This document shows, one piece after another, positions 3-23,790 of a stretch of 64,000 nucleotides of DNA. How positions within the stretch are numbered: position 1 is the stretch's first letter; the number at the start of each line of letters is the position of its first letter. The stretch lies in assembly GCF_900114605.1 (NCBI RefSeq), contig NZ_FOTP01000005.1, forward strand, positions 62,001-126,000, given 5' to 3'. Below the pieces are notes generated by a model, which was given only the letters and a program-made list of their open reading frames with translations, was not told the origin of the DNA and made no database searches. The stretch comes from Bradyrhizobium sp. NFR13 (GTDB lineage: Bacteria; Pseudomonadota; Alphaproteobacteria; Rhizobiales; Xanthobacteraceae). The position numbers and the translations under genes are program-made.

Positions 3-629
3 ATCGAAGGCGTGTTCGCACCGGAGACCGCAGCGCATGCGTCGGGCACCGCGGCGCTGCTGCCGATGCTGGCGCTGGGCATTCCCGGTTCGGGCACTGC
101 GGCGATTTTGCTCGGTGGCCTGATGGTGTGGGGCCTCAATCCGGGGCCGCTGCTGTTCGTCGAGCACAAGGACTTCGTCTGGGGCCTGATTGCCTCGATG
201 TATCTCGGCAATGTGGTCGGCCTCGTCATTGTGCTGACCACGGTTCCGATCTTCGCCTCGATCCTGCGCGTGCCATTCGCGGCGGTGGCGCCGATGATCG
301 TGGTCTCCTGCGCGATCGGCGCCTATGCGATCCAGAACGCGATGTTCGACATCTGGCTGATGCTCGGTTTCGGCGTGGTCGGCTATGTGTTCAAGAAGAT
401 CGGCATTCCGCTGGCGCCGTTCACGCTGGCGCTGGTGCTCGGCAGCCGCGCCGAAGATGCGTTCCGCCTCGCCATGATCGGCTCCGGCGGCAGCGTCGGC
501 GTGTTCTGGTCCAACGGTCTCGTCGGCACCATCACCACGCTGGCGATCACGCTGCTGTTCTGGCCGGTGATCGACAAAGTGTTCAGCGGGGTGGGGCGGA
601 TGCTGAAGCCGGCTGCTCAAACGTCATAG
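3..629 (+). CDS. tctA: TctA-family permease, C-terminal part (cut by window edge)
   Basis: C-terminal 208 residues of the large membrane subunit of a tripartite tricarboxylate transporter, which imports carboxylates across the inner membrane together with a TctC binding protein and small TctB subunit. The frame is open to the left edge, so the true start lies outside; complete TctA proteins are about 500 residues. Visible are the conserved TctA loop GIPGSGTAAILLGG followed by GLNPGP, and several long hydrophobic segments (around IASMYLGNVVGLVIVL, MLGFGVVGYVF and ITTLAITLLFW). The TAG stop overlaps the TGA stop of the convergent hydrolase gene by six bases. Substrate cannot be deduced. Family assignment is secure; partner genes are out of view. 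Confidence 0.9.
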   Translation: MEGVFAPETAAHASGTAALLPMLALGIPGSGTAAILLGGLMVWGLNPGPLLFVEHKDFVWGLIASMYLGNVVGLVIVLTTVPIFASILRVPFAAVAPMIVVSCAIGAYAIQNAMFDIWLMLGFGVVGYVFKKIGIPLAPFTLALVLGSRAEDAFRLAMIGSGGSVGVFWSNGLVGTITTLAITLLFWPVIDKVFSGVGRMLKPAAQTS

Positions 630-2528
630 TGCTTGTGCTGCCCCGTGATCTAGGCCGTCACGGGTTGGATGTTCGCCAGAACCGCTCCGGTCATTTGATG
701 CTTGCTGATAGACGCAAGGCGCCGCGAAGCAGTCGAGAGGGGCTGACACTGCCAAGTCTGGCGATGCTACGAGCGGGGCTGGCGGCGAAGGTGGCACGAG
801 CACGTCGCACAACACGTTCGTCAGTCGCGCACGGGGACCCAAATGCGTGAAATTGTGGTCGGCATCCGGGATGATTGAAATCGATGCGTTCGGGTAGTCG
901 CGCAGCCGGGCACCTTTTCTTCCCATATAGGTCCGGAATTCGCTCAGCCCGTGATCTCCTTCCGAAAATATCATCGCTAAGCGAACACCACGATTTTCGA
1001 GAATTCGGAACCGGCGATGACCTTCTTTAAAGAGGTTCAGGCCGGGTGCGCCCGCCGGGATTTGGACAGGTTTTGGTGACATCATTCGAATGAGGCGTGT
1101 CGAGACACGGATGGCTGCAGCTTTGACGCGCAAATTGCCTGACAGCAGTCGTCTCAGGCTGCGTTTGCTGAAAAGCATCGACATCGAACCACCGATGGTT
1201 CGATGGGCCGATAGCAGCGCTTCTGCGACAGTCTCCCGGGGGTCCCAAACAAAGCGCATATTGTTGATGACGACAACTTTTCGAATGCGCTCGTCTTGCA
1301 CAGCTGTTTGGAATGCGGTGTAGGCGCCACTGCAGCGTCCGACCAGAGCGATAGGGCCGGCATCGAGCTTCTCAACATAATCGATCGCATGACTCAGGTC
1401 AGCAATCTGCTCGTCCGAATAGATTACTTCGGCCGGGGCGCTTGCCGAAGCCGGACTGTCGCCGATGCCGCCAGCGTCGAATCTAAACGAAGCGACACCG
1501 CGCTGAGCGAGGGAGCGCGCCTGTTCTACCGTCGTGCGACCCCAGCCGATGTGATAATCGCGCCCGGAATTAGCGAGGATCGCGATAGCTGAAGGCCTTC
1601 GGCCGAGCGGCTGACAGAGAACGCCGAAGAGCCGCTCGTCTGGACCGAATCGAGTTGGTAATTCCTGATAGTGAGGACCAGCGATTGGCCGCGCCGGCTC
1701 GAGCGCCTTGGCTGAAGAATCGACGTTTGCCGTTGGAAGATGCGCGAGATTGTCGATCCATGACACGATGCGTGTCAGCGTGCCGAGCTGCGGTTCAGCC
1801 AGAGTCGGATCTGCAAGGATCATTTCGTAACCCGCGTAGTCGATGTATGAAACATCGACTCCGAGCGTCTTGAAGTGGTTGCCGATCGAGCTATCGCGAG
1901 ACAATTGACCGCGCTCGACCAAAAGGACCTTGTTGGCAGGAGGCCGAGTAGCTCGCGTGAGATCGATTGCTTGGATCGCTGCGACGCGGCTGCTTGCCAG
2001 TGAAATGCCCGCGACGCGATACTGGTTGTCGCCGAGAGGGTCCGGCCCAATACCGATCCGCTCGGTCAACATGTGCGACCAGGCTTGAAGTTCACGAAGA
2101 TAGGTGCGGCCTTTTACCAATGGCGCCATCAAGACCGTTGCTGCGACGCCGGGCGCTTCGGAGCCGAGCTGAGCGGCCAGACTCGCGCCAAAGCCCTGTC
2201 CGACCAGAACGAGTTCGATTCCGGGATTGTGTTCTCGCAAGAATGCAATGCACTGACGGGCCGCAACGAGCCAGTCGGTGACGCCTTCGGCGTCGCCAAC
2301 TGGATCAACGGCGTCTGCAGTGCCGGGATAATCGAATCTGAGGCAGGCATGGCCTGCTGCAGCAATGTTCTCGGCCAAAGCGCGCCATGTAGCACGGGTA
2401 CAGAATTCTTCGTACCCGATCGGCGCTAGCAACAGCACCGCCTTGCGACCTTGCTGATGAATGCGGCCTGCATGATAGAAGCCGCCAAAAGTATCAAACG
2501 TTACCGGTATGCCATATCGGGAAGTCAT
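624..2528 (-). CDS. Tandem alpha/beta-hydrolase protein with Cys nucleophile in second domain
   Basis: A 634-residue protein with two successive alpha/beta-hydrolase folds (about 1-270 and 300-600) and a Pro/Ala-rich tail of about 70 residues. In domain 1 the nucleophile elbow reads GQGFG (110-114), with Gly where Ser is expected, so it is probably inactive. In domain 2 it reads GRCSG with Cys399 as nucleophile; Asp525 (SEGDHG) and His558 (DADHNF) complete a Cys-Asp-His triad. There is no signal peptide. It is transcribed divergently from the carrier-protein operon at 3041 and could be a thioesterase or acyl-transfer enzyme for it (inference from position only). Start chosen at ATG 2528 (MTSRYG); an in-frame TTG at 2606 would add 26 residues, and neither has a strong ribosome-binding site. 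Confidence 0.75.
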   Translation of the reverse strand: MTSRYGIPVTFDTFGGFYHAGRIHQQGRKAVLLLAPIGYEEFCTRATWRALAENIAAAGHACLRFDYPGTADAVDPVGDAEGVTDWLVAARQCIAFLREHNPGIELVLVGQGFGASLAAQLGSEAPGVAATVLMAPLVKGRTYLRELQAWSHMLTERIGIGPDPLGDNQYRVAGISLASSRVAAIQAIDLTRATRPPANKVLLVERGQLSRDSSIGNHFKTLGVDVSYIDYAGYEMILADPTLAEPQLGTLTRIVSWIDNLAHLPTANVDSSAKALEPARPIAGPHYQELPTRFGPDERLFGVLCQPLGRRPSAIAILANSGRDYHIGWGRTTVEQARSLAQRGVASFRFDAGGIGDSPASASAPAEVIYSDEQIADLSHAIDYVEKLDAGPIALVGRCSGAYTAFQTAVQDERIRKVVVINNMRFVWDPRETVAEALLSAHRTIGGSMSMLFSKRSLRRLLSGNLRVKAAAIRVSTRLIRMMSPKPVQIPAGAPGLNLFKEGHRRFRILENRGVRLAMIFSEGDHGLSEFRTYMGRKGARLRDYPNASISIIPDADHNFTHLGPRARLTNVLCDVLVPPSPPAPLVASPDLAVSAPLDCFAAPCVYQQASNDRSGSGEHPTRDGLDHGAAQAL

Positions 2529-3040
2529 GATCTGGAAGCATCGCCGTTCGTCTAAAAAGTTCGTTCGTCGAATTGGCTGGCATTTGATTATTTTAGTTAT
2601 CAGCAATCAGCCCTGGATGATGTCCATGCCTTAACCCACCGGTGACGAAACTGTCATCCAATATCACTTTCTATCATTAATGTATGTTCAGCGCTGCGCG
2701 TTTAGCCGTTCGCTAACTGATCGGAGACAAATGTCGCCGTTTCGATAACCTTTCGTCAATCACTAGGCCTCCGTCGGACGATTTGTAGGTCCCATCCTCG
2801 GGCCTCAGTGGTTTTTGTGGCGCACAGAATCGCAACCGCAGTAACTCGCAGCAAATCGCCAAGGCGTCAATTTTGCGCATTTGCATCCTCATTTTGTTAA
2901 GCTTGGTGCCGGATCGATCTGTTGCATTTGAGACTTTTTACGATTTTCTCGACATTTAGCTGATATCGCTCGATTTGCTTTAACGCCGCTCCCAGCCTTT
3001 GGCGAAGCGGTGGGCTTTGTATAATTGTGGAGGAAAAGTT
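2529..3040. other. Divergent intergenic region, A/T-rich
   Basis: About 510 bases between the divergent hydrolase gene and the carrier-protein operon. It is clearly richer in A/T than its surroundings (24 of 60 bases are G or C in 2881-2940, against 41 of 60 in 50101-50160). It must hold the promoters of both transcription units, but I could not pick a convincing -35/-10 pair. No open frame longer than a few dozen codons looks coding. The only clear signal is the ribosome-binding site GGAGG at its right end. Confidence 0.6.
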
Positions 3041-3286
3041 ATGCGTGATCGTGTCCGCGCCATTGTCGGATCAATGAACCTTCTCCCCGTTCCGGTTGAT
3101 GGCTTGTCCGATCAGGACAATCTGTTCGATGCGGGCATGACATCTTTCGGCTCTGTCCAGCTGATGATGGCGATCGAGGAAGAATTCGATATCGAATTTC
3201 CCAACAGTCTGCTGACTCGCAAGACATTCGCGACGCTTGGTGGATTGATTTCTGCTGTCGATCAGCTCGTCGGTCAGAAAGTCTGA
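3041..3286 (+). CDS. Acyl carrier protein (dedicated carrier for amino acid ligase)
   Basis: An 81-residue acidic helical protein of carrier-protein type. The phosphopantetheine attachment site is in LFDAGMTSFGSVQLM, with Ser35 as the modified residue. The start at ATG 3041 is fixed by a strong ribosome-binding site (GGAGGA at about 3028-3033); an upstream in-frame GTG at 2999 lacks one. It is the first gene of a tightly packed operon, four bases before the acyl-CoA-dehydrogenase-like gene and one gene before the amino acid:[carrier protein] ligase. In Bradyrhizobium japonicum such ligases are known to aminoacylate the phosphopantetheine thiol of a small carrier protein, and this protein is the obvious substrate here. 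It differs from the housekeeping AcpP, which carries a DSL motif at the attachment site. Confidence 0.9.
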   Translation: MRDRVRAIVGSMNLLPVPVDGLSDQDNLFDAGMTSFGSVQLMMAIEEEFDIEFPNSLLTRKTFATLGGLISAVDQLVGQKV

Positions 3287-3290
3287 CGTC

Positions 3291-4499
3291 ATGATCACGG
3301 GCGCGGTGAAGCAAGACATTAACGTCCCCGAAATCGCATCCTGGCGTGACGCGATGCAGCGGATTGCCGCCGACGTTGCAGCGCCAAACGCCGTTCTTGC
3401 GGACCGAACCGCGACGTTTCCGGCGCAGACATTTGAAGCTCTTCGCCGGAACGGCATGCTCGGCTTGATGGTGCCCAAAAGCCTTGGTGGCCAGGAATTA
3501 GGATTGCGCAAGATCGCTGATCTTTGCGCTGTTCTCGCGGGTGCATGCGGTGCGAGCGGCATGATTTACGCCATGCATCAGATCAAGCTTTCAAGTCTGG
3601 TCGCGCATGGTATGCAAACGGACTATCATCGTGCTCTGATGCGCGATGTGGCCGCGAAGCAGTTGTTGATCGCGTCGTCGACCACAGAGGCTGGCATCGG
3701 CGGCGATCTGCGGATCTCGAACTGCGCGATCGAGACCGCGGGCGACCGGGTTTCGCTGACCAAGCAGGCAAGCGTCCTGTCATACGCCATGGAGGCCGAC
3801 ATCATCATGGCGACCGCACGCCGCAGTCCGGCGTCGGTCGGTTCCGATCAGGTCCTGATCGCACTGCGTCGTGGCGACTATCAACTGGAACGTACCGGTG
3901 AGTGGGACACGCTGGGCATGCGCGCCACGTGTTCCGAGGGTTTCTTGCTGACGGCAACGGCCGGGGTCGATCAGATCTTTCCAAAGCCATTTCACGAGAT
4001 AGCAGTGCAATCCATGTTAGCCACCGCGCATGTATTGTGGGCTAGCGTCTGGTTTGGGATCGCGACCAATGCACTGTCGCGCGCGCATGCCTCGGTTCGC
4101 GCAACAGCGCGCCGCATGCCGTCGGATTTTCCAGGGCCGCTGCCAGGCGCCGCTCGACTGGCCGAGGCCACCGCAAAATTACAGACCTTCAAGTCGACGC
4201 TCGTTGCGCATATCGAACGGTTCGAAACGGCGAAACGTAACGAAGATGATCTCAGCTCGATCAATTTCGCGATCGAGATGAACAATCTTAAAGTCATGGC
4301 CTCGACCATGGCCGTCGATGTCGTGCGTGAAGCGTTGATGGTGACTGGCATCGCCGGTTATCGCAACGATGGACCGTTTTCTGTCGGCCGCCATCTCAGA
4401 GACGTGTTGTCGGCGCCGCTGATGGTGGCGAACGACCGTATCCTCGCCAATACCGCCGGATTGGTGGTCGCGAGCCGATTTGACTCAGGTCTGGAGTGA
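3291..4499 (+). CDS. Acyl-CoA-dehydrogenase-like flavoprotein lacking the usual catalytic Glu
   Basis: A 402-residue protein with the three-part acyl-CoA dehydrogenase fold: N-terminal helices containing [20 protein letters not shown], a middle beta domain with the flavin-binding region around [16 protein letters not shown], and a C-terminal helical domain ending [20 protein letters not shown]. The C-terminal motif that normally reads YEGT and supplies the catalytic Glu here reads VANDRIL, so the standard base is absent from that position. Its place between a carrier protein and an amino acid:carrier-protein ligase suggests that it acts on a carrier-bound thioester rather than on free acyl-CoA (inference). 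ATG 3291 lies four bases after the carrier-protein stop; the TGA stop at 4497-4499 lies just before the next start. Confidence 0.85.
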
Positions 4500-4504
4500 T
4501 AGTG

Positions 4505-5434
4505 ATGAACGCGCCTGCTAAACCCATGCAAAGCCCGGAAGCATTTCTCAACGCTCTGTTCGACGAATCGATCCTGATCAAGACTGGTGTCGACGGCCTC
4601 TATGGGCGCGCCGGTGTGTTCGAAGATGTCATCGATCGGTTCGAAGACGCGGTGACGAAAATGGCTGTTGGCGATCAGGCTACGCGGATTCATTTTCCCC
4701 CGGGCATGCCACGCAAGAATCTCGAGAAAGCAGGGTACCTGAAGAGCTTTCCGCAATTGGCAGGTTGCGTCCATTCGTTCATGGGTGACAATACCGACCA
4801 TGCCAAGCTTGTCGGGATGATCGAGCGGGGCGAAGACTGGACCGGGATGCAGGACGCGACGGAAGTCGCCCTGACGCCGGCTGCCTGTTACCCGCTATAT
4901 CCCACCGTCGCGGCAGCGGGGCCGGTGCCGGAGGGGGGGCGGCTATTCGATCTCAAGTCATACTGCTTCCGTCATGAACCTTCGAAAGATCCGGCGCGGA
5001 TGCAGCTGTTCCGGATGCGCGAATTCGTCCGTATCGGAACTGCCGACGAAGTGACGTCTTTCCGGGCCACGTGGCTCGAGCGGGGCGAAAAACTCATCGC
5101 GTCGTTGGGCTTGCCTTGCGTCATCGATCTCGCCAACGATCCGTTCTTCGGGCGTACCGGCCGTGTTCTGGCGTCGAGCCAGCGTGACCAGGGGCTGAAG
5201 TTTGAATTGTTGATCCCGGTCGCGAGCGATGAAAATCCGACGGCCTGTCTATCTTTCAACTATCACCAGAACCATTTCGGCAGTCTGTGGGGCATGCATT
5301 TTGCGGACGGCGATGTCGCGCATTCGGCCTGCGTCGGCTTCGGCCTTGAGCGGACGGCGCTGGCCCTGTTCCGTCACCACGGCACCAAGGTCGAAGCATG
5401 GCCTGCAGATGTCCGCCGCGTATTGTGGGGCTAG
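4505..5434 (+). CDS. Amino acid:[acyl-carrier-protein] ligase (class II aaRS-like, Bll0957 type)
   Basis: A 309-residue homologue of the atypical, zinc-dependent seryl-tRNA synthetase catalytic core without a tRNA-binding domain. Such proteins, characterised as Bll0957 of B. japonicum, activate glycine or alanine with ATP and load it onto the phosphopantetheine of a carrier protein. The three zinc ligands are recognisable: Cys128 ([10 protein letters not shown]), Glu173 ([11 protein letters not shown]) and Cys276 ([11 protein letters not shown]). If counted from the in-frame GTG at 4496 they become 131, 176 and 279, which matches the published numbering as I remember it. Class II motif 2 is [20 protein letters not shown] and motif 3 is [16 protein letters not shown] 4505 is preferred because GGAG (4493-4496) lies eight bases upstream. 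Amino acid specificity is not readable here. Confidence 0.93.
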
Positions 5435-5437
5435 GCC

Positions 5438-6430
5438 TTGCAATCCGTTTGCGCCATCGAGGGACTGGATCCCGCAACTTACACGCGGCATGGTCTGCAT
5501 GACGCCGCGCGGAATTGGCCCGAGACCAACTGCTATGTCGATCTGCTGATCGAAGTGCTGGCCCAGCGCGGACATGATCCTCGCGCCGCGCTGGCTTTCA
5601 CGGTCGCACAAGATTACGAAGGCGACCAGTTCACATTTTTCAAGGTTCCGTCCGCCGATCTTGCGTTGCTATACGGTGTCGAGATCCTGGAGCTCGCGAT
5701 CTTCGATCAATTGGAAGATCACGCGCGCGTACAGTTGGCACGGGGGCGTCTGCCGCTGATCGAGGTCGATTCCTACTATCTGCCGGATACCCGGGGCATC
5801 ACCTATCGCCGCAGCCACAGCAAAACGACAATCGGCGTCAACGTTCTGGATTCGGCCAACCGCCGGCTCGATTACTTTCACAATGCCGGATACTTCCGCC
5901 TGGAAGGCGAGGATTTCGACGCGCTATTGCGGCCGGCACATGACAAGGGACTGCCGCTGTTCCCCTATGTCGAATTTATCAAGTTTGGTCCGGCCCCGTC
6001 TGCGCGCGAACAAATGGAAATGTCGCGCATGCTGCTGGCGCACCATCTGCGTCGTCGTCCGGCGCAGAATCCGTTCACGGCATGGGGCGAGGTGATCAGT
6101 GTCGACATCGCTCGGCTGATGGAACGTCCAGCCGAGTGGTTTCACACTTACGCGTTCAGCACATTGCGCCAGGCTGGCGCCAATTTTGAACTGCTCGCGT
6201 CCTACTTGGCGTGGTTGCAAGAGCGGGGTCACCCGGCACCAGAGCGCGCCAGGTTGGCCGCAGAAGCGATTGCCAGTGGCACAAAGGTTATGCAGTTTCA
6301 GTTCGCCCGCGCATCGGCCCGAGGCAGGGTTCCTGATGTGACGGATGCCATCCGCCAGCTCGCGACCGACTACGACATCGTCCTCGATGGTCTCGCGAAC
6401 GATTTTGTTGCTCGTGGCACCGCTCTGTGA
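5438..6430 (+). CDS. DUF1839 protein, possible BtrH-like aminoacyl transferase
   Basis: A 330-residue protein of the DUF1839 family, which travels with amino acid:carrier-protein ligases; its function is not established. The N-terminal half has features of a papain-like fold: Cys32 at the head of a helix (PETNCYVDLLIEVL), a strand-rich stretch LPLIEVDSYYLPDT, and His127 in RRSHSKTTIGV, followed by Asp138 or Asp145. This layout resembles the N-terminal domain of BtrH, which transfers an acyl group from the carrier protein BtrI to an aminoglycoside (resemblance judged by eye). The C-terminal half (about 170-330) is helical. It starts at TTG 5438, three bases after the ligase stop, with GGGG a few bases upstream, so it is probably translationally coupled. 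A role in moving the amino acid from the carrier to an acceptor is an inference. Confidence 0.8.
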   Translation: MQSVCAIEGLDPATYTRHGLHDAARNWPETNCYVDLLIEVLAQRGHDPRAALAFTVAQDYEGDQFTFFKVPSADLALLYGVEILELAIFDQLEDHARVQLARGRLPLIEVDSYYLPDTRGITYRRSHSKTTIGVNVLDSANRRLDYFHNAGYFRLEGEDFDALLRPAHDKGLPLFPYVEFIKFGPAPSAREQMEMSRMLLAHHLRRRPAQNPFTAWGEVISVDIARLMERPAEWFHTYAFSTLRQAGANFELLASYLAWLQERGHPAPERARLAAEAIASGTKVMQFQFARASARGRVPDVTDAIRQLATDYDIVLDGLANDFVARGTAL

Positions 6431-6505
6431 TCGCAGCACGATCACCTATGCCGGCGCCCCATCATGGCATGGTCTCGCCATGACGTTTTCGGCTCATTTA
6501 TTGCC

Positions 6506-8968
6506 ATGACCGACATCCGCGCCATAACGGAACGAAAGGTGCAGCCGCTCGATAATGGCTGGGAACTGGCGCTGTCGGCACCTCAGGCCTGGCTGGAGCC
6601 GAGCGCGCTGAGTGAGGCCGTCTGGTTGCCCGCCATCGTCCCCGGGACGGCCGCCGGAGCGCTGCGTGCCCTCGGTCAATGGAGTTTCGATAGCCCTCAG
6701 CCGCTGCACGAAAAAGACGTCTGGTACCGGCTCCGCATCAGAGGGCAGGGCAAGCGCAAGTTGCGGTTTGAGGGGCTCGCGACATTCGCTGAGGTCTTCT
6801 TCGACGACAGGCTCATCCTGGCCAGCAGCTCGATGTTCGAGCCATATGAGGCCGAGATCGTTCTCGGCGGTGAGCATTGGGTCCATATCGCCTTCAGGAG
6901 CCTCCGCAGAGTGTTGGCGGAAACCAAAGGCCCCCGGGCACGCTGGAAGACCATGATGATCGAGGAGCCGCGGCTGCGGTTTCTGCGCACCACGCTGATC
7001 GGTCATATGCCCGGCTGGTGCCCTCCAGTAGAGGTCGTTGGCCCGTATCGCCAGGTCCTCCTGATCGAGGAGGGGCCGATCGTGGCCCGCAATGTCGATC
7101 TGCGCGCGCAGCTGGAACAAGCTGATGGCGTGCTTTCCATCTCGCTGGATTTGGAAGGCGTACCGGCGGACGCGATTCCGGTCCTCCGATGCGCCGGAGC
7201 GAGCGCACGGCTCATCCGGTCCCATCGGGAAACGACCTGGCAAGGGATGCTGCGTATTCCCGATGTCGCGCCATGGTGGCCGCACACGCATGGCACGCCG
7301 ACGCTCCATGCGGTCGGCATCCAAATCGGCGACGTCCATGTCGATCTCGGCCAGACGGGCTTTCGCAAAATCGAACTCGACCGGGGACCGGATGGCCACG
7401 GATTTGCGATCCTTGTGAACGGCGTGAGGATCTTCTGCCGCGGCGTGTGCTGGACCCCGGTCGATATCGTCAATCTGCAGGCGTCTGATGCCGACTACAT
7501 CCGAGAGCTTAGCCTGGTGCAAAGCGCCGGCCTGAACATGCTGCGCCTTAGCGGCACGATGCTGTACGAGACGTCTGAATTCCATCGTGCTTGCGATGAG
7601 ATGGGCATCCTCGTCTGGCAGGACGCGATGATGGCCAATTTTGATTATCCATCGGATACCGCATTCGCAGATACTGTCCGCAGCGAGATCACGACGCTCC
7701 TGCGCCGACTGAGCGCGTCGCCGTCTCTGGCCGTTATGTGCGGCGGGAGCGAAGTTGGACAGCAGGCAGCAATGATGGGGTTGCCGCGCCAGATGCGCGA
7801 CACACCACTTGCCGAGAGGGTGATCCCCGAGATTCTTGCGCAATGGTCGGACGCCGTCTATGCGCCAGGTTCGCCGTCGGGAGGAGCACTTCCGTTTGTG
7901 TCGGAAGCGGGGCCATCGCACTACTACGGCGTCGGTGCCTATATGCGGCCACTCGACGACGCACGCCGAGCTAATGTCCGCTTTGCGTCCGAATGCCTGG
8001 CTTTTGCCAACCTGCCGGACAATCGCCAATTTGAATCCTGTCAACTTGATCCGAGCGCTGATCCGGTCGGTTGGCTGAGACGTGTGCCCCGCGACGGCGG
8101 AGCATCCTGGGATTTCGAGGACGTCCGCGAGTATTATCTAACGGCACTTTGGAACGAAGACGGCCGCAGTCTGCGCCACAGCGATCCCATGCGCTGGCGC
8201 CAATTGTCGCGAGCGGTCGTCGCCGAGGTGATCGAACGCACCATCGATGAATGGCGCCGTCCCGCGTCCGCGACAGCGGGCGCACTGCTATGGCTGTGGC
8301 GCGACCTGTGGCCTGGTGCCGGCTGGGGTCTGGTGGATTCGGACGGGCGCCCCAAGTCTGCGGTCTACGCCCTTCGGCGGGCTTCCTTGCCACTGCGACT
8401 ATCCATCACCGACGAGGGCACCAATGGGCTTTACCTGCACCTCGTCAACGACACGCCACACGCCGTCACCGGCAGGCTCGTTTTGCGTTGCCTGAAAGAC
8501 GGCACGATACCGGTGATCGAAGCGGCCCGTGACGTGACGCTCGCGGCCCATGCAGGGCTTTCCATCGGGGCGTTCGACCTGTTCGATCGCTTCTTCGATG
8601 CGGGTCACTGTTATCGGTTTGGACCGGCTGCGCATGACGTGGTTCATGCGACGTTCGAGATGCCAACCGCAGGTCAGCCTGTCGAGGCTTTCCATTTTAT
8701 TGGGATTCCTACGGTCGAATCCAACCATGCCATCAATGCGGTGCTTGGCGAAGATCGAAACGGTTTCTTCCTGGAGCTCCAGACGGACGCAACAATGCGA
8801 TTCGTCGAGATCGCGGACGACAACTTTGTGCCCGACGACAATTACTTCCATCTCGTACCCGGACGTAAAAAAGTCGTTTGCTTCACACCGTCGTACCAAG
8901 CCGGCAAACACGTGCGCCCTGCAGGGCGGGTCTCGGTGCTGGGCGGAAGCGGCGATGTCAACTACTGA
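6506..8968 (+). CDS. Glycoside hydrolase family 2 protein (beta-mannosidase-like)
   Basis: An 820-residue GH2-type enzyme with an N-terminal galactose-binding-like beta domain (about 1-170), an immunoglobulin-like domain, a TIM-barrel (about 300-600) and C-terminal beta domains. Both catalytic glutamates appear present: acid/base Glu416 in MCGGSEVGQ and nucleophile Glu496 in RFASECLAF. There is no signal peptide, so it should act in the cytoplasm, unlike most polysaccharide-degrading relatives. It follows the DUF1839 gene by about 75 bases and probably belongs to the carrier-protein operon, which would make its substrate a glycoside linked to that pathway (inference). Start set at ATG 6506 (MTDIRA); an in-frame ATG at 6464 is possible and neither has a clear ribosome-binding site. 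Confidence 0.8.
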   Translation: MTDIRAITERKVQPLDNGWELALSAPQAWLEPSALSEAVWLPAIVPGTAAGALRALGQWSFDSPQPLHEKDVWYRLRIRGQGKRKLRFEGLATFAEVFFDDRLILASSSMFEPYEAEIVLGGEHWVHIAFRSLRRVLAETKGPRARWKTMMIEEPRLRFLRTTLIGHMPGWCPPVEVVGPYRQVLLIEEGPIVARNVDLRAQLEQADGVLSISLDLEGVPADAIPVLRCAGASARLIRSHRETTWQGMLRIPDVAPWWPHTHGTPTLHAVGIQIGDVHVDLGQTGFRKIELDRGPDGHGFAILVNGVRIFCRGVCWTPVDIVNLQASDADYIRELSLVQSAGLNMLRLSGTMLYETSEFHRACDEMGILVWQDAMMANFDYPSDTAFADTVRSEITTLLRRLSASPSLAVMCGGSEVGQQAAMMGLPRQMRDTPLAERVIPEILAQWSDAVYAPGSPSGGALPFVSEAGPSHYYGVGAYMRPLDDARRANVRFASECLAFANLPDNRQFESCQLDPSADPVGWLRRVPRDGGASWDFEDVREYYLTALWNEDGRSLRHSDPMRWRQLSRAVVAEVIERTIDEWRRPASATAGALLWLWRDLWPGAGWGLVDSDGRPKSAVYALRRASLPLRLSITDEGTNGLYLHLVNDTPHAVTGRLVLRCLKDGTIPVIEAARDVTLAAHAGLSIGAFDLFDRFFDAGHCYRFGPAAHDVVHATFEMPTAGQPVEAFHFIGIPTVESNHAINAVLGEDRNGFFLELQTDATMRFVEIADDNFVPDDNYFHLVPGRKKVVCFTPSYQAGKHVRPAGRVSVLGGSGDVNY

Positions 8969-9025: not shown

Positions 9026-9955
9026 TTAATCCGGCAATGACGGCTGCGCCAGATACGCCAGGAGTTTTATCTCGCGGCGTCCGCGGGTGACTGTGTCGAG
9101 CACGAGGCCCGATGAAAATGAGAGCACGCCGACGATCATCAGGCCAGTCGAGAGCACCGCGGTAGGCAGCCGAGGCACCAACCCCGTTTCCAGATAGGTG
9201 ACGGTGACGGGAATCGCGAGGCCGATGGAGACGATGCCGAAAAAGAGGCCGATTGTGCCGAAGAAGCGCAGCGGCTTTTCCGAACGATAGAGCTTCATGA
9301 TGGTGCCGAGGATCCGGAAGCCATCCCTCCACGTGTTGAGCTTGCTGGTGGAGCCCTGCGGCCGCGCGAAATACGGCGTCTCGATTTCAGCGACCGGCAG
9401 AGCAAGCTGCAGCGCATGAACGCTCAGTTCTGTCTCGATCTCGAAGCCATCGGACAGCACCGGGAAGGATTTGACGAAGCGCCGCGAGAATACGCGATAG
9501 CCTGACAGCACATCCTTGAAGTTCTGACCGAACGTCATTGACAGAAAGCCGGTGAGCAGCGAGTTGCCGGTGCGGTGACCAAGGCGATAGGCAGCAACCT
9601 GTTGCTCGATGCGACGGCCCACGACCATGTCGAGGCGATCGTTTAACAGCGCTTCGATCATGGCTGGTGCCGATGTCGCGTCGTAGGTCGCATCGCCATC
9701 GACGAGAACGTAGACATCGGCATCGACGTCACCGAACATGCGGCGGACGACATGACCCTTGCCCTGGCGATGCTCGCTGCGAACAATCGCGCCCGCCTGC
9801 GACGCGACTTCGCGCGTGCGATCTGTCGAATTGTTGTCGTAGACGTAAATCGTGGCGGCCGGCAGCGCCTTGCGGAAATCGTTCACGACTGTTGCGACTG
9901 CGACCTCTTCATTGAAGCAGGGGATCAGGATAGCGACGCGGTGCGGTGCGGTCAT
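9026..9955 (-). CDS. GT2 family membrane-anchored glycosyltransferase (DPM1/GtrB-like)
   Basis: A 309-residue inverting GT-A glycosyltransferase. N-terminal catalytic domain: IPCFNEE, nucleotide-binding YDNNSTDRT and metal-binding DGD at 86-88. Two hydrophobic segments near the C-terminus (FFGTIGLFFGIVSIGLAIPV and VLSTGLMIVGVLSFSSGLVL) anchor it in the inner membrane. Relatives transfer a sugar from a nucleotide donor to a polyprenyl phosphate, or extend surface glycans. It is convergent with the GH2 gene (57 bases apart), so a link to the carrier-protein cluster is possible but not shown. Donor and acceptor are unknown. Confidence 0.85.
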   Translation of the reverse strand: MTAPHRVAILIPCFNEEVAVATVVNDFRKALPAATIYVYDNNSTDRTREVASQAGAIVRSEHRQGKGHVVRRMFGDVDADVYVLVDGDATYDATSAPAMIEALLNDRLDMVVGRRIEQQVAAYRLGHRTGNSLLTGFLSMTFGQNFKDVLSGYRVFSRRFVKSFPVLSDGFEIETELSVHALQLALPVAEIETPYFARPQGSTSKLNTWRDGFRILGTIMKLYRSEKPLRFFGTIGLFFGIVSIGLAIPVTVTYLETGLVPRLPTAVLSTGLMIVGVLSFSSGLVLDTVTRGRREIKLLAYLAQPSLPD

Positions 9956-15217: not shown

Positions 15218-16159
15218 CTACTCGAAATTGACGCGCTCGCGTTCGATGACCATCGGGCGGCGCCTGACCTGATTGAAGATCGCGACGATGTATTCGCCTA
15301 GCAGGCCGAGGAACAGCATCTGAACGCCGCCGAAGAAAAAGATCGCGATGACAATTGTCGGTGTTCCCTGAGGACCAAGGTCAAAGCCGAGCAGCTTTAA
15401 GACAAGTAGAGTAAAGGCGTAGACGAAACTCAGGAACGCGATTCCGAAGCCTGCAAAAAAAGCGATACGCAGCGGCGCGCTGCTGAAGCTGATGATCCCG
15501 TTCAGGCCCTGATCGACAAGCTGCCAGAGCCGGTTTCGCGAAATTCCGTGCTTGCGGGGCTGCCACTTGTAGGGAATGCCGACCGATCGGAAGCCTGCGT
15601 CGAATGGCATCATGCGCATGAAGGGCTGTACATCCTCGAAGCGCTTCATGGCATCCAGGACTTTACGGTCCACGAGTTGATAGTCGCCGACATCTGCCGG
15701 ATAGGTCACGTAGGACATGCGGCTGATGAACTGATAGTAAAAATGCCGCGCCGTACGTAGCAAGATGGGTTCTTCGCGTTCCGCTCTAATTCCGAACACA
15801 ACCTCGTTGCCGGCTTCCCAGTGTTTGACAAAGGTGGTGATCAGTTCTGGGGGGTCCTGGAGGTCGGCCGGCACGAACAATACGATGGCGTCGCCAGTCG
15901 TGCTGAGGACTCCGTTATAGGTATTGCGCAGAATGCCGAAGTTGCGGGAATTGACGATGATTTTGACCGATGGATCCTCTGCTGCAATCGCCTTCAGGAT
16001 CTCGACCGTGCGGTCGCTCGATGCATTGTCGCAAAATATGTGCTCGCGATCGTAATCAGGTAGCTCGCGCGCAAACAGGTCCTTGATAGCCTGATAGCAC
16101 TCGGCGATCCCGTCCTCTTCGTTGAAGCATGGTGTCACGAGGCTGATCGTTTTACGCAC
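15218..16159 (-). CDS. gtrB: GtrB-like bactoprenol glucosyltransferase (GT2)
   Basis: A 313-residue GT2 enzyme with two C-terminal membrane segments (IAFFAGFGIAFLSFVYAFTL and IVIAIFFFGGVQMLFLGLLG), the family signature of GtrB/YfdH. Landmarks: VTPCFNEEDGI, CDNASSDRT, SRNFGILRNTYNG, PADLQDPPE (metal and donor site) and RKHGISRNRLWQLVDQGLNG in two pieces. Expected reaction: transfer of a hexose from UDP-sugar to undecaprenyl phosphate on the cytoplasmic face. Its ATG overlaps the end of the upstream gtrA-like gene by eight bases, indicating translational coupling. Together with the neighbours it forms a gtrA-gtrB-transferase triad for O-antigen modification. The exact sugar is unknown. Confidence 0.88.
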   Translation of the reverse strand: MRKTISLVTPCFNEEDGIAECYQAIKDLFARELPDYDREHIFCDNASSDRTVEILKAIAAEDPSVKIIVNSRNFGILRNTYNGVLSTTGDAIVLFVPADLQDPPELITTFVKHWEAGNEVVFGIRAEREEPILLRTARHFYYQFISRMSYVTYPADVGDYQLVDRKVLDAMKRFEDVQPFMRMMPFDAGFRSVGIPYKWQPRKHGISRNRLWQLVDQGLNGIISFSSAPLRIAFFAGFGIAFLSFVYAFTLLVLKLLGFDLGPQGTPTIVIAIFFFGGVQMLFLGLLGEYIVAIFNQVRRRPMVIERERVNFE

Positions 16160-16682
16160 TTGGCGAACTCCGAAACACGAATAGCTTAAGAACTAAAAAT
16201 GTGCCGATCACGACAGGCGGCAAAACGAGGGCCTGTGCGACCAGCGGATGAATGCCCCAGGCAAGCACAGTGCGTAGCAGGAGGACGTTAAATCCATAGA
16301 TGACGAGGTAAGCGAGCGCAAATTTGAGAAAGTTCTTGCCGCCGCCATTGCCGCGAAAGACAAGGCGGCCTGTCGTCATATAGTTGAATCCGACGGCGAT
16401 GACGACGGTTACAAATAGCGCCAGCTCCGGCGCAAGTCCCGCGAATATCCCCACGGCGTAGACCAGATAGCCGAATGCGGTATTCAACAGGCCAACGATC
16501 AGGAAACGGGCAAATTGACCAGCCGTCCGTCTGCGGTCGGCAGGGATCATTGGATGTAGCCAGTCGTCAACACGGGGTTGTTTTAGCCGTCGTTCGACAG
16601 GAAACGCGTATTCCTGCCTGAGCTGTCGTTCTATTCTGGGATCCACTCTGTATGGGAGGGATTGGCCGAATTCAAGCGACAA
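16152..16682 (-). CDS. gtrA: GtrA family putative polyprenyl-linked sugar flippase
   Basis: A 176-residue protein with a basic, soluble N-terminal stretch of about 55 residues and then four membrane segments: FLIVGLLNTAFGYLVYAVGI, LALFVTVVIAVGFNYMTTG, FALAYLVIYGFNVLLLRTVL and ALVLPPVVIGTFLVLKLFVF. The motif RFLIVGLLNTAFGYLVY and the closing FLVLKLFVFR are typical of GtrA, which is thought to flip the undecaprenyl-phosphate-linked sugar made by GtrB. The N-terminal extension is longer than in phage GtrA (about 120 residues). First gene of the minus-strand triad; divergent from rfbF across 95 bases. Confidence 0.85.
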   Translation of the reverse strand: MSLEFGQSLPYRVDPRIERQLRQEYAFPVERRLKQPRVDDWLHPMIPADRRRTAGQFARFLIVGLLNTAFGYLVYAVGIFAGLAPELALFVTVVIAVGFNYMTTGRLVFRGNGGGKNFLKFALAYLVIYGFNVLLLRTVLAWGIHPLVAQALVLPPVVIGTFLVLKLFVFRSSPSA

Positions 16683-16777
16683 TAGGCGGCCAAGCTGCAG
16701 TTGACAAAAACGCTTGGAAACGTGCAGTTACTTGAACCTAAAAGCCCGATTTATCTAGCATTTTCGAAAGTAGTCCG

Positions 16778-17548
16778 ATGAAAGTTGTCATCCTTGCAGG
16801 GGGCCTCGGTACGCGCCTGGCTGAGGAAACCAGCGTGCGGCCGAAGCCGATGGTGGAAGTCGGAGCAAGGCCGATTCTCTGGCACATCATGAAGATCTAC
16901 AGCCACTATGGCTTCAACGATTTCATCGTCTGCCTTGGGTACAAGGGATACGTCATCAAGGAATATTTTGCTAATTATTTCCTGCACATGACCGATGTGA
17001 CCTTTCACCTGGCCGAGAATCGCATGGAAGTTCATCGCGAGACAGCGGAGCCCTGGCGCGTGACGCTTGTGGACACGGGCGACGAGACGATGACCGGTGG
17101 GCGCCTGAAGAGAGTGCTGCCCTATGTCGGCGATGAAGAAGTATTTGCGATGACCTATGGCGACGGTGTCGCCAATATCGATCTGGCGGCCGAATTGGCT
17201 TTTCACAGGTCTCACGGCAAGCAGGCCACGGTGGCGGCGGTGCGTCCCGCCAAGCGTTTCGGCGCGATTTCGATCGAGGGTGATCACGTCAAGAGTTTCC
17301 AGGAAAAGCCGGCTGACGACGGCGGCTGGATTAATGGAGGCTTCTTTCTGCTCTCGCCGAGCGTCGGCAAACTGATCGCGGGCGATAGTACGGTCTGGGA
17401 AGGGGAACCGATGGAAACGCTGGCGCGGACTGATGAGTTGCGCGCTTACGTCCACCATGGCTTCTGGCATCCGATGGATACCATTCGCGACCGCACGTTC
17501 CTCGAGTCGCAGTGGACCGGCGGGAAAGCCGAGTGGAGAGTTTGGTGA
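16778..17548 (+). CDS. rfbF: Glucose-1-phosphate cytidylyltransferase
   Basis: A 256-residue nucleotidyltransferase, nearly the exact length of RfbF/DdhA. It makes CDP-glucose from CTP and glucose 1-phosphate, the first step to CDP-linked 6-deoxysugars. Landmarks: N-terminal LAGGLGTRLAEETSVRPKPM, GARPILWHIMKIYSHYG, and YGDGVANID for metal and sugar phosphate; the closing GFWHPMDTIRDRTFLE is specific to this subfamily rather than to glucose-1-phosphate thymidylyltransferases. It is first in a plus-strand operon with rfbG, a C-methyltransferase and a Gfo/Idh/MocA reductase, and its stop overlaps the probable GTG of rfbG. Confidence 0.95.
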   Translation: MKVVILAGGLGTRLAEETSVRPKPMVEVGARPILWHIMKIYSHYGFNDFIVCLGYKGYVIKEYFANYFLHMTDVTFHLAENRMEVHRETAEPWRVTLVDTGDETMTGGRLKRVLPYVGDEEVFAMTYGDGVANIDLAAELAFHRSHGKQATVAAVRPAKRFGAISIEGDHVKSFQEKPADDGGWINGGFFLLSPSVGKLIAGDSTVWEGEPMETLARTDELRAYVHHGFWHPMDTIRDRTFLESQWTGGKAEWRVW

Positions 17549-18606
17549 TTGATCCGGACTTCTGGCGCAACCGCCGCGTCTTTCTGACGGGGCATACGGG
17601 CTTCAAGGGTGCGTGGATGACACTGCTGCTGCGCTCGCTTGGTGCGCAGGTGTCCGGTTTTGCATTGCCGCCGGAGAACGAAAAAGATCTGTTCAACGTC
17701 GCTGGTGTGCAGAGCGATGTGGAACACCAGATCGGCGATGTGCGCGACCTTCCGCTCCTGCGCGATTCGCTACGGATGGCTAAGCCGGAAATCGTGATCC
17801 ACATGGCGGCACAATCGCTGGTCCGCCTGTCTTACGATGAGCCGGTCGAGACCTATGCAACCAATGTCATGGGTACAGTGCATCTTCTTGAGGCGGCCCG
17901 CTCGGTTCCAGAAGTCCGTGCCATCGTGGTGGTGACCAGTGACAAGTGTTACGAGAACACTGGCACGCTGCGGGGGTACAATGAAACGGATGCCATGGGC
18001 GGATACGATCCCTATAGCAGCAGCAAGGGATGCGCCGAGATCGTCACGGCAGCCTATCAGCGTAGTTTCTTCCACGATGGATCATCGGCGCTTGTGGCGA
18101 GCGCACGCGCCGGCAACGTGATCGGCGGCGGCGACTGGGCTCGCGACCGGCTCGTGCCGGATATCATGCGGTCATTCATGGCGGGGCAGGTGGTTCGGAT
18201 CCGGAATCCGGACGCGGTGCGCCCGTGGCAGCACGTCATGGATCCGGTGATTGGTTACCTGACGTTGGCTCAACGTCTGGTTCAGGGGGGGCGTCAATTT
18301 GCCGAAGGCTGGAACTTCGGCCCACATGAGGACAGCGAGGTCCCCGTCTCGACCCTTGTGCGGCAACTCGCGGCGCATTGGGGAGCGGATGCCCGATGGG
18401 ATCTGGACAAGGGTGACAATCCGCACGAAGCCGCGTATCTGAAACTGGATTGCAGCAAGGCGCGTGCGCGGCTTGAATGGAGCCCGGTCATCGAATTTGA
18501 TCGCGCGCTGCAACTGTCGTCGGAATGGTATCGCGCATTTCATGAGCACGCGGATATGCGCGCGCTGACCCTTCGCCAGATCAACGAGACAATCGGCGGC
18601 CGCTGA
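17545..18606 (+). CDS. rfbG: CDP-glucose 4,6-dehydratase
   Basis: A 353-residue extended SDR enzyme converting CDP-glucose to CDP-4-keto-6-deoxyglucose. Landmarks: GHTGFKGAWM (NAD-binding glycine motif), MAAQSLVRLSYDEP, VVTSDKCYEN, catalytic YDPYSSSKGCAE and NVIGGGDWARDRLVPD, all typical of RfbG/DdhB. The start is placed at GTG 17545, overlapping the rfbF stop with GGAGAG just upstream; in-frame GTG codons at 17512 and 17533 would lengthen it by 11 or 4 residues. Normally the next enzyme is the PLP-dependent dehydrase RfbH; here a sugar C-methyltransferase follows instead. Confidence 0.95.
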   Translation: MIDPDFWRNRRVFLTGHTGFKGAWMTLLLRSLGAQVSGFALPPENEKDLFNVAGVQSDVEHQIGDVRDLPLLRDSLRMAKPEIVIHMAAQSLVRLSYDEPVETYATNVMGTVHLLEAARSVPEVRAIVVVTSDKCYENTGTLRGYNETDAMGGYDPYSSSKGCAEIVTAAYQRSFFHDGSSALVASARAGNVIGGGDWARDRLVPDIMRSFMAGQVVRIRNPDAVRPWQHVMDPVIGYLTLAQRLVQGGRQFAEGWNFGPHEDSEVPVSTLVRQLAAHWGADARWDLDKGDNPHEAAYLKLDCSKARARLEWSPVIEFDRALQLSSEWYRAFHEHADMRALTLRQINETIGGR

Positions 18607-18649
18607 CAGATTTGACGGCTGCCTCGAAACGACATGCAGGAGATTAAGG

Positions 18650-19894
18650 GTGCTGGGTTCCATCGTTGAGATTAAGTCGTGTGAAGTGTGCGGTAGCTCG
18701 GACCTGAGCTCCGCCATCGACCTTGGCCTGCACCCGATGTGCGATGATCTCGTTCCTGTTGGTAATGGTTATGTCTGCAAGGAATATCCGATCGACATTC
18801 TGTACTGCAGCTCGTGCCGTACCGCGCACCAGCGCTTTCAGATTCCGAAACGAGAGCTGTTTCCAGCCACCTATCACTATCGCTCGCGCCATACGATGGA
18901 CGTGCTGAATGGCATGAAGGATCTGGTCGCTGCCTGCGAAGTGACGTTGGGAAATCTATCGGACAAGAAAGTACTCGATATCGGTTGTAACGACGGAAGT
19001 CTGCTGTCCTTTTTCGCAGAAAAAGGCGCCAAGACATTCGGCATCGAACCGACCGGTGCTGCCGCCGATGCCGCGGAGCGCGGGCACGTTGTCATCAATG
19101 ATTTCTTTTCCGAAGAAGTTGCGGATCAATTCGTGCGCAAGAACGGCAAGCCTGACGTCATCACGTTCACGAACGTCTTTGCTCATATCGAAGACCTGAA
19201 GGGCGTGATCCGCGCGTTGAAAATCGCTGCGCATGACAAAACGCTGATCGTTATTGAGAACCACTATCTCGGCGCGATCCTCGAACGAAATCAGTTCGAT
19301 ACATTTTATCATGAGCATCCGCGCACCTACAGTCTGACTTCTTTCGTTCACATCGCAAAGTCGCTTGGCATGGAAATCGCGCTGGCCGAATTTCCCAAGC
19401 GTTATGGTGGCAATGTTCGCGTGTTTCTCCGAGCAGCATCGGGCGATGGGGCTGTTCGCGAGAAGCTTGCGGAGATCGACAGCCTGGAAGGCGGATTCGG
19501 CGACGGACTGACGAAGCTGGCGGCACAGGTTGCCATCTGGAAAGACAACAAATACGCGCAGATTCAGGCAGAGGTTGCCAAGTACGGGCCGCTTGCCGTC
19601 AAGGCATTTCCCGGACGTGCCGCGATTCCGGTGAAGATGCTCAATCTATCGACCGATCATATTTCGGCTGCCTATGAGAAGCCGTCCTCCGCCAAGATTG
19701 GACACTACATTCCGGGCACACGGATTCCCATTCGCTCGGACGACGAATTCACGCCGGCGCTGATTGGCGATGCTCCGCTGCTGAATCTAGCCTGGCATAT
19801 CGCAGATGAGATCAAGGGATACCTGCGTCAGCGCGGCTTTAACGGTCCAATCATAGACATCATTGCGCCGGAAGATTTTCTGGAGCGACGGTGA
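18650..19894 (+). CDS. NDP-hexose C-methyltransferase (TylCIII-like) with zinc-binding N-domain
   Basis: A 414-residue sugar C-methyltransferase of three parts: an N-terminal zinc-knuckle domain with CEVCG and YCSSC cysteine pairs, a central SAM-binding domain (VLDIGCNDGSLLSFF) and a C-terminal substrate domain of about 140 residues. Characterised relatives (TylCIII, TcaB9) methylate C3 of a 4-keto-deoxysugar nucleotide. The conserved NHYLG and FYHEHPRTYS segments match the active-site region of this family. GTG 18650 is preceded by AGGAG with seven-base spacing. Directly after rfbG, it should use CDP-4-keto-6-deoxyglucose, giving a branched CDP-sugar (inference). Confidence 0.88.
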   Translation: MLGSIVEIKSCEVCGSSDLSSAIDLGLHPMCDDLVPVGNGYVCKEYPIDILYCSSCRTAHQRFQIPKRELFPATYHYRSRHTMDVLNGMKDLVAACEVTLGNLSDKKVLDIGCNDGSLLSFFAEKGAKTFGIEPTGAAADAAERGHVVINDFFSEEVADQFVRKNGKPDVITFTNVFAHIEDLKGVIRALKIAAHDKTLIVIENHYLGAILERNQFDTFYHEHPRTYSLTSFVHIAKSLGMEIALAEFPKRYGGNVRVFLRAASGDGAVREKLAEIDSLEGGFGDGLTKLAAQVAIWKDNKYAQIQAEVAKYGPLAVKAFPGRAAIPVKMLNLSTDHISAAYEKPSSAKIGHYIPGTRIPIRSDDEFTPALIGDAPLLNLAWHIADEIKGYLRQRGFNGPIIDIIAPEDFLERR

Positions 19895-20823
19895 CCTTCG
19901 CGATCTTCGGATCCGGCTTCGGGCTTTACGGCTATCTTCCGGCGTTGATCGGTTGCGGTCAGCATGTGGTTCTTCCAGAGCGATATCGTGAGCGCTTTCT
20001 GACGCGCACGGAGCTGGTGCGATTTTCCGGGGACATCGAATGGGCGACCGACGAGGCGGCGGCATTGGCGCGTGCCGATGGCGTTGTTGTCGCACTGCGG
20101 CCCGGCGATCAGGCAGCGTGGCTTCCGCGTTGCGTTACGCAGCCTCAGCTTGCAAGGCTGATGCTTGAAAAGCCATTGGCGCAGACGCCCGACGAAGCCC
20201 TGCGATTGCAGAAGCTGTTGCGTGACAGTGGAAAGTCGTTTCGCATCGGCTACACGTTTTGCGGAACGCCGTGGGCGGCGGACATTCGCGAGTTCGTCGC
20301 TCAAGATCAGGGTGGCTTGCTCGCGATTGACTGGCAGTTCATGGCGCACCATTACCGGCACGATCTGCCGAACTGGAAAAGATCGCATCCCGAAGGCGGC
20401 GGCGCGATCCGCTTCTATGGCATTCAACTGATCGCAGTACTTGCCGAACTCGGCTATCGGGAGGTCGCCGAAAGCCACTCGTTCGGGCCAAGCGAACAGG
20501 AAATCATGCGATGGACCGCCACGGTTGCGGGCAAGGGCCTGCCGGACTGTCGGATCGTCGTCGATTGCAGATCAGACGTCACGGAGTTCGTGATTCAGGC
20601 TCAGTCGCCCCGCGGTCCACAGAAGCGTCGGTTCGGCAATCGTGATCCGTTCGGGGACGACGCCCGCATGGCGACGCCGAATGCGCTCGACAGCCGCGTA
20701 GGTCTGCTACAAGGGCTAATCAACCCTCTGCTTCACCCTGGCAGCGGAGGCCCGGCTTGGTACGACGATGTTCTGTTGCTGTGGCAGAACATCGAGGCTC
20801 GCTCGACCTTCTCGCTCGCCTGA
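19891..20823 (+). CDS. Gfo/Idh/MocA family sugar nucleotide oxidoreductase
   Basis: A 310-residue NAD(P)-dependent oxidoreductase. Rossmann start FAIFGSGFGLYGYLPAL and the EKP signature (93-95, with Lys94 as the expected catalytic or cofactor-proximal lysine) are clear. The second active-site segment reads GGGAIRFYGIQLIAVL; where most members have a His after the helix turn (GIH), this has Gln. Its GTG overlaps the stop of the C-methyltransferase by four bases, so the two are coupled. The likely job is reduction of the keto group of the C-methylated CDP-sugar, a step usually done by an SDR enzyme. Last gene of the operon; the convergent wzt gene ends two bases away. Confidence 0.8.
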   Translation: MTFAIFGSGFGLYGYLPALIGCGQHVVLPERYRERFLTRTELVRFSGDIEWATDEAAALARADGVVVALRPGDQAAWLPRCVTQPQLARLMLEKPLAQTPDEALRLQKLLRDSGKSFRIGYTFCGTPWAADIREFVAQDQGGLLAIDWQFMAHHYRHDLPNWKRSHPEGGGAIRFYGIQLIAVLAELGYREVAESHSFGPSEQEIMRWTATVAGKGLPDCRIVVDCRSDVTEFVIQAQSPRGPQKRRFGNRDPFGDDARMATPNALDSRVGLLQGLINPLLHPGSGGPAWYDDVLLLWQNIEARSTFSLA

Positions 20824-20824
20824 A

Positions 20825-21595: not shown

Positions 21596-21598
21596 GAA

Positions 21599-23655: not shown

Positions 23656-23705
23656 CGGGTTACCGACGTCCGCGCGCGATCTACCTGTCCCTGAAGCGGG
23701 GTATT

Positions 23706-23721
23706 GGGCCGGCGCCGGCCC
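23706..23721. repeat. Perfect 16-bp GC palindrome between two glycosyltransferase genes
   Basis: GGGCCGGCGCCGGCCC reads the same on both strands and can form a six-pair hairpin with a four-base loop. It sits in the 135-base gap between two minus-strand glycosyltransferase genes. It could weaken read-through between the downstream export genes and the upstream assembly genes, but there is no T-run on the minus strand, so a terminator role is uncertain. Confidence 0.35.
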
Positions 23722-23790
23722 TAAGTAAAGTCATTTATTGTCGCTGGATATGACCGTTTCAGGCCGAGGGAGAATGTCGCGTGGATGTTC

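Follow-up and report, generated by a model that had tools for sequence, protein, structure and literature searches.

The 64,000-nucleotide window analysed here (Bradyrhizobium sp. NFR13, contig NZ_FOTP01000005.1, positions 62,001 to 126,000 of the forward strand) contains a compact cluster of genes for an aminoacyl carrier protein, a flavoenzyme, an amino acid--[carrier protein] ligase, a DUF1839 protein and a GH2-type enzyme. A preliminary description, made from the sequence alone, gave the positions and identities of these five genes, with which our family and profile matches agree, and regarded them as a complete set for loading, carrying and transferring an amino acid. The set is not complete, as a sixth gene on the minus strand, encoding a tandem alpha/beta hydrolase, co-occurs with the five and had been left out. 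This divergently transcribed, cysteine-type hydrolase is the sixth component, and it accompanies the set even when unlinked. The six genes are as follows.

624..2606, minus strand (likely start at about 2528): tandem alpha/beta hydrolase, N half hydr2_PEP-like, C half hydr1_PEP-like
3041..3286, plus strand: aminoacyl carrier protein with phosphopantetheine site Ser35 (PF00550, PRK07081)
3291..4499, plus strand: acyl-CoA-dehydrogenase-like flavoenzyme (PF02771 and PF00441 over cut-off)
4496..5434, plus strand: amino acid--[carrier protein] ligase, class-II synthetase-like (PRK07080; Bll0957 structures)
5438..6430, plus strand: DUF1839, papain-like cysteine enzyme, probable carrier-dependent acyl (amide) transferase (PF08893, invariant residues, fold matches)
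6506..8968, plus strand (open frame from 6464): GH2 beta-mannosidase-like enzyme (beta-mannosidase relative, two Glu)

The genes from carrier to DUF1839 are spaced by +4, -4 and +3 bases, which bears out the gaps of a few bases first reported. The gap of 75 bases given for the GH2 gene is correct if translation starts at the ATG at 6506, but the first ATG of the frame lies only 33 bases from DUF1839. In a Tardiphaga relative (L005) the GH2 frame starts at the residue matching the ATG at 6506; the closest DUF1839 loci are four Tardiphaga records that are 85-89% identical. The cluster had been drawn from position 2529, a boundary that includes about 510 bases ahead of the carrier gene and lies next to the likely start of the omitted hydrolase.

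Co-inheritance of the six genes

The five genes were surveyed in 55 DUF1839 loci, which were found with a DUF1839 query and conserved peptides and in which gene presence was counted by tblastn. This survey had been set beforehand as a refuting test of the preliminary description, and all five genes were found in 50 of the 55 loci, 49 times arranged as carrier, flavoenzyme, ligase, DUF1839, GH2. The remaining one of the 50, from a Mycolicibacterium, is arranged differently and has a hydrolase match about 12 kb off. Two loci are truncated by a contig edge, as L050 ends inside DUF1839 and L015 begins just before the ligase. In the two Propionibacteriaceae (L038, L041) the set is divided between two contigs, with DUF1839-GH2 on the first and carrier-flavoenzyme-ligase on the second; one of these loading contigs continues with the hydrolase and the other ends inside the ligase. 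A comparable split is found in genome G186, where carrier-flavoenzyme-ligase-DUF1839 and GH2-hydrolase occupy separate contigs. Rhizobium leguminosarum Vaf-46 (L027) has DUF1839 and shortened versions of both ligase and GH2, with no carrier or flavoenzyme found, and represents a broken copy or a poor assembly. Because all 55 loci were chosen by a DUF1839 query, they hold no information on ligases without DUF1839, and distant copies were possibly missed.

Whole genomes were searched as well, with few candidates scored per genome. Among 289 genomes of the class the ligase exceeds its cut-off in seven and DUF1839 is present in four, each time beside the ligase; the corresponding numbers for 248 genomes of the family are 50 and nine, and all nine DUF1839 genes again adjoin the ligase. 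The same four class genomes contain a GH2 orthologue (E<=3e-209), the next match being a different GH2 protein in G040 at 6e-36. The fused hydrolase (E<=2e-147) occurs in five of the 289, namely the four DUF1839 genomes and G131, which has the ligase without DUF1839, and G147 gives a weaker match to the C half (5e-46). Genomes with DUF1839 and no hydrolase within 6 kb were also searched, comprising 10 of the 11 such loci (L025 was left out) and G186, and in 11 of 11 the hydrolase lies further away or elsewhere. In L045 and L055 it shares the contig at a distance of about 7 and 12 kb, and the match in G815 contains an internal stop.

Ligase genomes without DUF1839 number 44 over the cut-off, 41 from the family sample and three from the class sample. 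GH2 is absent from all seven of them that were tested. The hydrolase, searched for in six of the 44, is absent from G297, G403, G499, G070 and G140 and present in G131; it is also found in L091 and L095, which come from two further ligase genomes without DUF1839. Chance neighbourhood is ruled out by these genome and locus surveys. Over 45 loci, mirror-tree correlations are 0.94-0.98, as linked genes would be expected to give, and they are not counted as proof.

The ligase is found in three settings. In the first, as in the window, it is accompanied by DUF1839 and GH2. The second consists of carrier, ligase and hydrolase without DUF1839 (L091, L095, and L080, which is also without the flavoenzyme); a Wzx gene lies near L091, as does a weak match to Wzz. 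The third has no hydrolase or DUF1839, and its flavoenzyme and ligase have an AMP-binding enzyme and a short-chain dehydrogenase close by; this arrangement was scanned in L089 and extended to L092-L094 by their similarity to it, and L090 shares one other neighbour. All five of these loci come from the window's own family, and GH2 is absent from the four of their genomes that were tested. L089 and L092-L094 possibly represent a separate pathway that uses the same ligase family. An acyl-CoA dehydrogenase, bll0958, is tabulated beside Bll0957 of B. japonicum in PMC10888616. The window ligase is closest to the structures of Bll0957, which the preliminary description cites, but Bll0957 may belong to the third setting and hence to another version of the pathway.

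Predicted roles of the encoded proteins

Residue conservation was assessed in alignments from which frames with stops, proteins below 80% of the length of the window protein, duplicates and loci L001 and L060-L063 were excluded. The carrier protein matches PF00550 (E 7e-11) and the curated family PRK07081 (89 bits, cut-off 72), its Ser35 is invariant in 46 of 46 aligned sequences including its own, and among solved structures it comes closest to the carrier of 4h2w and to Atu2571 (2jq4), at E 2e-18. The ligase scores 482.7 bits against a curated PRK07080 cut-off of 357, and the solved structures nearest to it are those of Bll0957 (E 2e-95). Cys131, Glu176 and Cys279, which we take to be its zinc ligands, are invariant in 56 of 56 sequences. 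The protein has 312 residues, and two serine--tRNA ligase profiles match it over only the last ~200 of their 518 positions; judged by this alignment, it is a catalytic core only, without a tRNA-binding domain. Relatives of the ligase have reportedly been shown by others to load aminoacyl groups in vitro, and family membership makes it very probable that the window enzyme loads an amino acid onto the carrier.

The predicted structure of DUF1839 (PF08893, 408 bits against a cut-off of 22.5) has a mean predicted local distance difference test score (pLDDT) of 91.1 and a predicted template modelling score (pTM) of 0.90. All 57 aligned sequences keep Cys32, His127, Thr130 and His148. When the model was compared with the PDB by Foldseek, the 14 matches at E<=0.001 all belonged to three proteins, AziU2/U3 (3 chains, AziU2-U3 at 1.7e-8), CtaG (8 chains, 3.3e-7) and CcbD (3 chains, 5.6e-5); staphopain and other cysteine proteases rank after them, at E 0.04 and worse. 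The fold had been anticipated in a 2023 paper (PMC10318531), which assigns DUF1839 a papain-like fold and a Cys-(Thr/Ser)-His triad and proposes a connection to cell-wall glycans. The cysteine of CcbD (7yn2, 9dkr) is described as taking a carrier-bound amino acid and passing it to the amine of a thiooctose, thereby forming an amide with an amino sugar (PMC12945683), and for CtaG a role as a carrier-dependent peptidyl transferase has been proposed (PMC6772006). On the strength of the modelled fold and the invariant residues, DUF1839 probably catalyses aminoacyl transfer.

The flavoenzyme has valine or isoleucine in 52 of 52 sequences at the position of Glu376 in medium-chain acyl-CoA dehydrogenase (MCAD), presumably the usual catalytic base of that enzyme. 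The position was taken from an alignment with 7p98, and other base positions are possible. Many dehydrogenases rank first among its remote solved relatives, which also include DnmZ, 4kcf and a nitrososynthase, proteins that we take to be amino-sugar N-oxygenases; its substrate may be the aminoacyl group or a sugar. For the GH2 protein the best solved relative is a beta-mannosidase (E 1e-49). Glu430 and Glu510 are invariant in 54 of 54 sequences and align with motifs of 2je8 that presumably hold the catalytic glutamates. By eye, the protein has no signal peptide.

The sixth protein scores 90.4 and 43.7 bits against the curated cut-offs of 168.45 and 202.75 for hydr1_PEP and hydr2_PEP, respectively, and by these scores it is a relative, not a member, of the two exosortase-A-associated families. 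In the C half a G-x-C-x-G box contains Cys425, and this residue is invariant together with Asp551 and His584 in 39 of 39 sequences; in a wider set of 26 fused hydrolases the cysteine and histidine are present in 26 and the aspartate is aligned in 24. At the place of the nucleophile the N half has glycine or arginine in 39 of 39 sequences; serine and cysteine are missing there in 25 of the 26 proteins of the wider set, and L086 has serine. A structural search with the hydrolase model gave ordinary esterases, lipases and similar proteins as its 50 best matches, and the structure was set aside as an uninformative clue to role, as it returned alpha/beta hydrolases only.

A related hydrolase pair is found in exosortase-A clusters. 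A carrier-like protein was called in eight of the nine loci L119-L127 (not in L124), where it adjoins hydr2 and hydr1 and has a ligase and a decarboxylase close by; the assignments to TIGR03098, TIGR03099, TIGR03100 and TIGR03101 were checked on L125 and partly on L127. Exosortase-A (XrtA) hydr1 has the Cys, Asp and His of the window hydrolase in 8 of 8 proteins, and XrtA hydr2 has arginine at the nucleophile place and no serine or cysteine, also in 8 of 8. In L127 hydr2 and hydr1 are fused as in the window protein. The sample covers 8 of 15 genomes over the cut-off and two below it, with the hydr1 of L123 left out, and in its ten 19-kb stretches no DUF1839, GH2 or synthetase-like ligase was found. 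A cysteine-containing hydr1 and a nucleophile-less hydr2 beside a carrier suggest, from these residues, an acyl-transfer device rather than a plain pair of hydrolases. A TIGR03100-type gene has been described in an exopolysaccharide cluster, for which the authors, in the relevant passage, only suggest quality control (PMC3584217), and the 2006 exosortase paper (PMC1569441) has no mention of the hydrolases under the terms searched.

A proposed pathway and its alternatives

We give even weight to the proposal, and to its opposite, that the six genes form one pathway, tied to surface polysaccharide, in which DUF1839 aminoacylates a sugar amine. The ligase would first activate a small amino acid and load it onto the phosphopantetheine arm of the carrier, as expected from its family. 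The flavoenzyme may then carry out an oxidation, of the carrier-bound aminoacyl group or of the acceptor sugar. In a third step the aminoacyl group would move to Cys32 of DUF1839 and from there to an amine, for which a sugar amino group is the likeliest candidate, as with CcbD in lincosamide synthesis. Finally, the dead-looking hydr2-like half and the cysteine-containing hydr1-like half of the hydrolase may serve for another round of acyl transfer or for release, and this protein would tie the module to the assembly or export of surface polysaccharide. The GH2 enzyme would act on the glycosidic side of the DUF1839-dependent branch.

The polysaccharide link is drawn from a protein fusion and from the surroundings of the hydrolase elsewhere. 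At L035:14755-18066, in Rhizobium, a Wzx-type flippase is fused ahead of the tandem alpha/beta hydrolase in a single protein of 1103 residues. Where the hydrolase lies away from the core genes, its neighbours include GT4 (L141), GH5, GT4 and a weak MatE match (L142), WecG (L147), and Bac_transf, Wzx and Wzy (L144); for the copies in L140 and L146 one neighbour each was scanned, with no match. A polysaccharide-type gene group also starts about 6 kb downstream in the window, where the following features form the context of the cluster.

9026..9955, minus strand: glycosyltransferase family 2 neighbour, outside the conserved set
15218..28778 (selected frames): polysaccharide-type genes, comprising GT2, nucleotidyltransferase, sugar-nucleotide dehydratase-like, methyltransferase, ABC ATPase, GT4 and a triple-GT4 protein

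The first of these proteins resembles the archaeal S-layer glycosyltransferase AglJ (TIGR04182, 225 bits, cut-off 325). The triple-GT4 protein (25008-28778, minus strand) has 1256 residues and three GT4-type glycosyltransferase stretches. For the sugar or glycan acceptor of the preliminary description, the fold match between DUF1839 and CcbD and the polysaccharide setting of the hydrolase now provide support, but the argument from the GH2 enzyme, by itself, is weak. We lean slightly towards a precursor of surface polysaccharide as the acceptor.

Several points weigh against the proposed pathway. The genome samples are small and partly related, and eight of the nine DUF1839 genomes in the family sample belong to one genus. 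The amino acid, acceptor and product are all putative. TM-scores of the DUF1839 model to CtaG and CcbD are only 0.53-0.66, a profile of 29 DUF1839 proteins finds no AziU2/U3, CtaG or CcbD among PDB sequences up to E 10, and the conserved Cys-Thr-His appears to differ from the Cys-His-Glu of CcbD. Sequence homology to solved proteins was dropped as a guide after this profile search, and in view of the moderate TM-scores and missing sequence match we hold that DUF1839 shares the fold and logic of the CcbD group, not its membership. The flavoenzyme is without an agreed role, and there is no explanation of why a glycosidase that keeps both catalytic glutamates should be needed. The ligase and hydrolase occur without DUF1839 and GH2 (L080, L091, L095), and the DUF1839-GH2 pair of L041 lies near genes for citrate synthase and elongation factor G, not near glycan genes.

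The last observation fits an alternative in which the pathway makes a soluble aminoacylated sugar or signal, a lincosamide-like small molecule, instead of a surface polysaccharide. CcbD and CtaG act in antibiotic pathways, as presumably does AziU2/U3, and the apparent lack of a signal peptide in the GH2 protein points the same way. We nevertheless regard a soluble product as rather unlikely, given the flippase fusion in Rhizobium and the polysaccharide neighbours of the hydrolase in the four scanned loci. Still somewhat less probable, in our estimate, is a division of labour in which the cysteine-type hydrolase transfers onto the sugar and DUF1839 earlier joins a second amine or amino acid in a peptide-type step. 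Such an arrangement would agree with the hydrolase accompanying the loading genes without DUF1839 and GH2, with its relatives beside the carrier in exosortase-A clusters, with the Cys, Asp and His common to hydr1, and with the role proposed for CtaG; the esterases and lipases among its structural matches count against it, as they make release by hydrolysis as possible as transfer. A lipid pathway, with the carrier and dehydrogenase-like protein working on a fatty acyl group, draws on the acyl-CoA dehydrogenase fold and is highly improbable in view of the replaced catalytic base position and the match of carrier and ligase to aminoacyl-loading families.

Relation to known systems

The transfer of an amino acid to a surface sugar, to which we return as the preferred reading, is not a new idea. 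A note in proof from 2010 (PMC2922099) describes the surroundings of a synthetase-like ligase, naming a carrier, a redox enzyme, a glycosidase, liposaccharide genes and Atu2574, a highly conserved protein then uncharacterised, and proposes ligation of the amino acid to a cell-surface sugar with Atu2574 as the amide ligase. From its position, we infer that Atu2574 is a DUF1839 protein. The load-carry-transfer scheme of the preliminary description is the best reading and right in outline, with an incomplete gene set and a precedent in print. In the open-licence papers covered, Atu2573 is a mere name in a list in one further publication (PMC11941606), and section 12 of a 2022 review (PMC9437257) still calls the biological role of loaded carriers unknown. 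What we add is that DUF1839 is named, on the basis of its model, as the enzyme likely to form the amide product, that the hydrolase belongs in any reconstitution or deletion set for the pathway, and that the links to surface polysaccharides and exosortase-A clusters make the question testable in laboratory strains.

The known systems closest to the window include the amino acid--carrier ligase and carrier exemplified by Bll0957 and Atu2571. The window ligase and carrier score over the curated cut-offs of their families and have Bll0957 and Atu2571 as closest PDB relatives, and the conserved Atu2574 frame lies beside such a ligase (PMC2922099), but only the loading half has been studied. The lincosamide synthetase CcbD/LmbD resembles the proposed pathway in its carrier-bound amino acid, papain-like cysteine enzyme of similar fold and amine acceptor, and differs in that no sequence similarity to DUF1839 was found and the triad order appears not to be the same. 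To our knowledge, the lincosamide system has no GH2 enzyme or hydrolase pair. It also uses an A-domain ligase, LmbC, instead of a synthetase-like ligase, and the 2015 paper that reports this states, in the passage concerned, that LmbD/CcbD have no similarity to any protein (PMC4351081). D-alanylation of teichoic acids by the Dlt system is alike in logic only, as there too an amino acid destined for a cell-surface polymer is first placed on a carrier by a ligase. In that system DltA is AMP-forming and transfer proceeds through the membrane protein DltB; no DltB-type gene was found among the neighbours scanned.

The exosortase-A module shares with the window a carrier beside hydr2 and hydr1, the cysteine box and the absence of a nucleophile from hydr2, whereas an AMP-forming ligase (TIGR03098) and a decarboxylase (TIGR03099) replace the synthetase-like ligase and flavoenzyme. 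It is tempting, if speculative and less likely than not, to regard DUF1839 as the founder of a group of carrier-dependent amide synthases that act on a surface-polysaccharide precursor, with the pseudo-hydrolase and cysteine acyltransferase shared with exosortase-A clusters. If this is true, amino acid--carrier ligases would gain a biological role, and two interchangeable loading systems, one synthetase-like and one AMP-forming, would feed a single route of amino acids onto surface polysaccharides.

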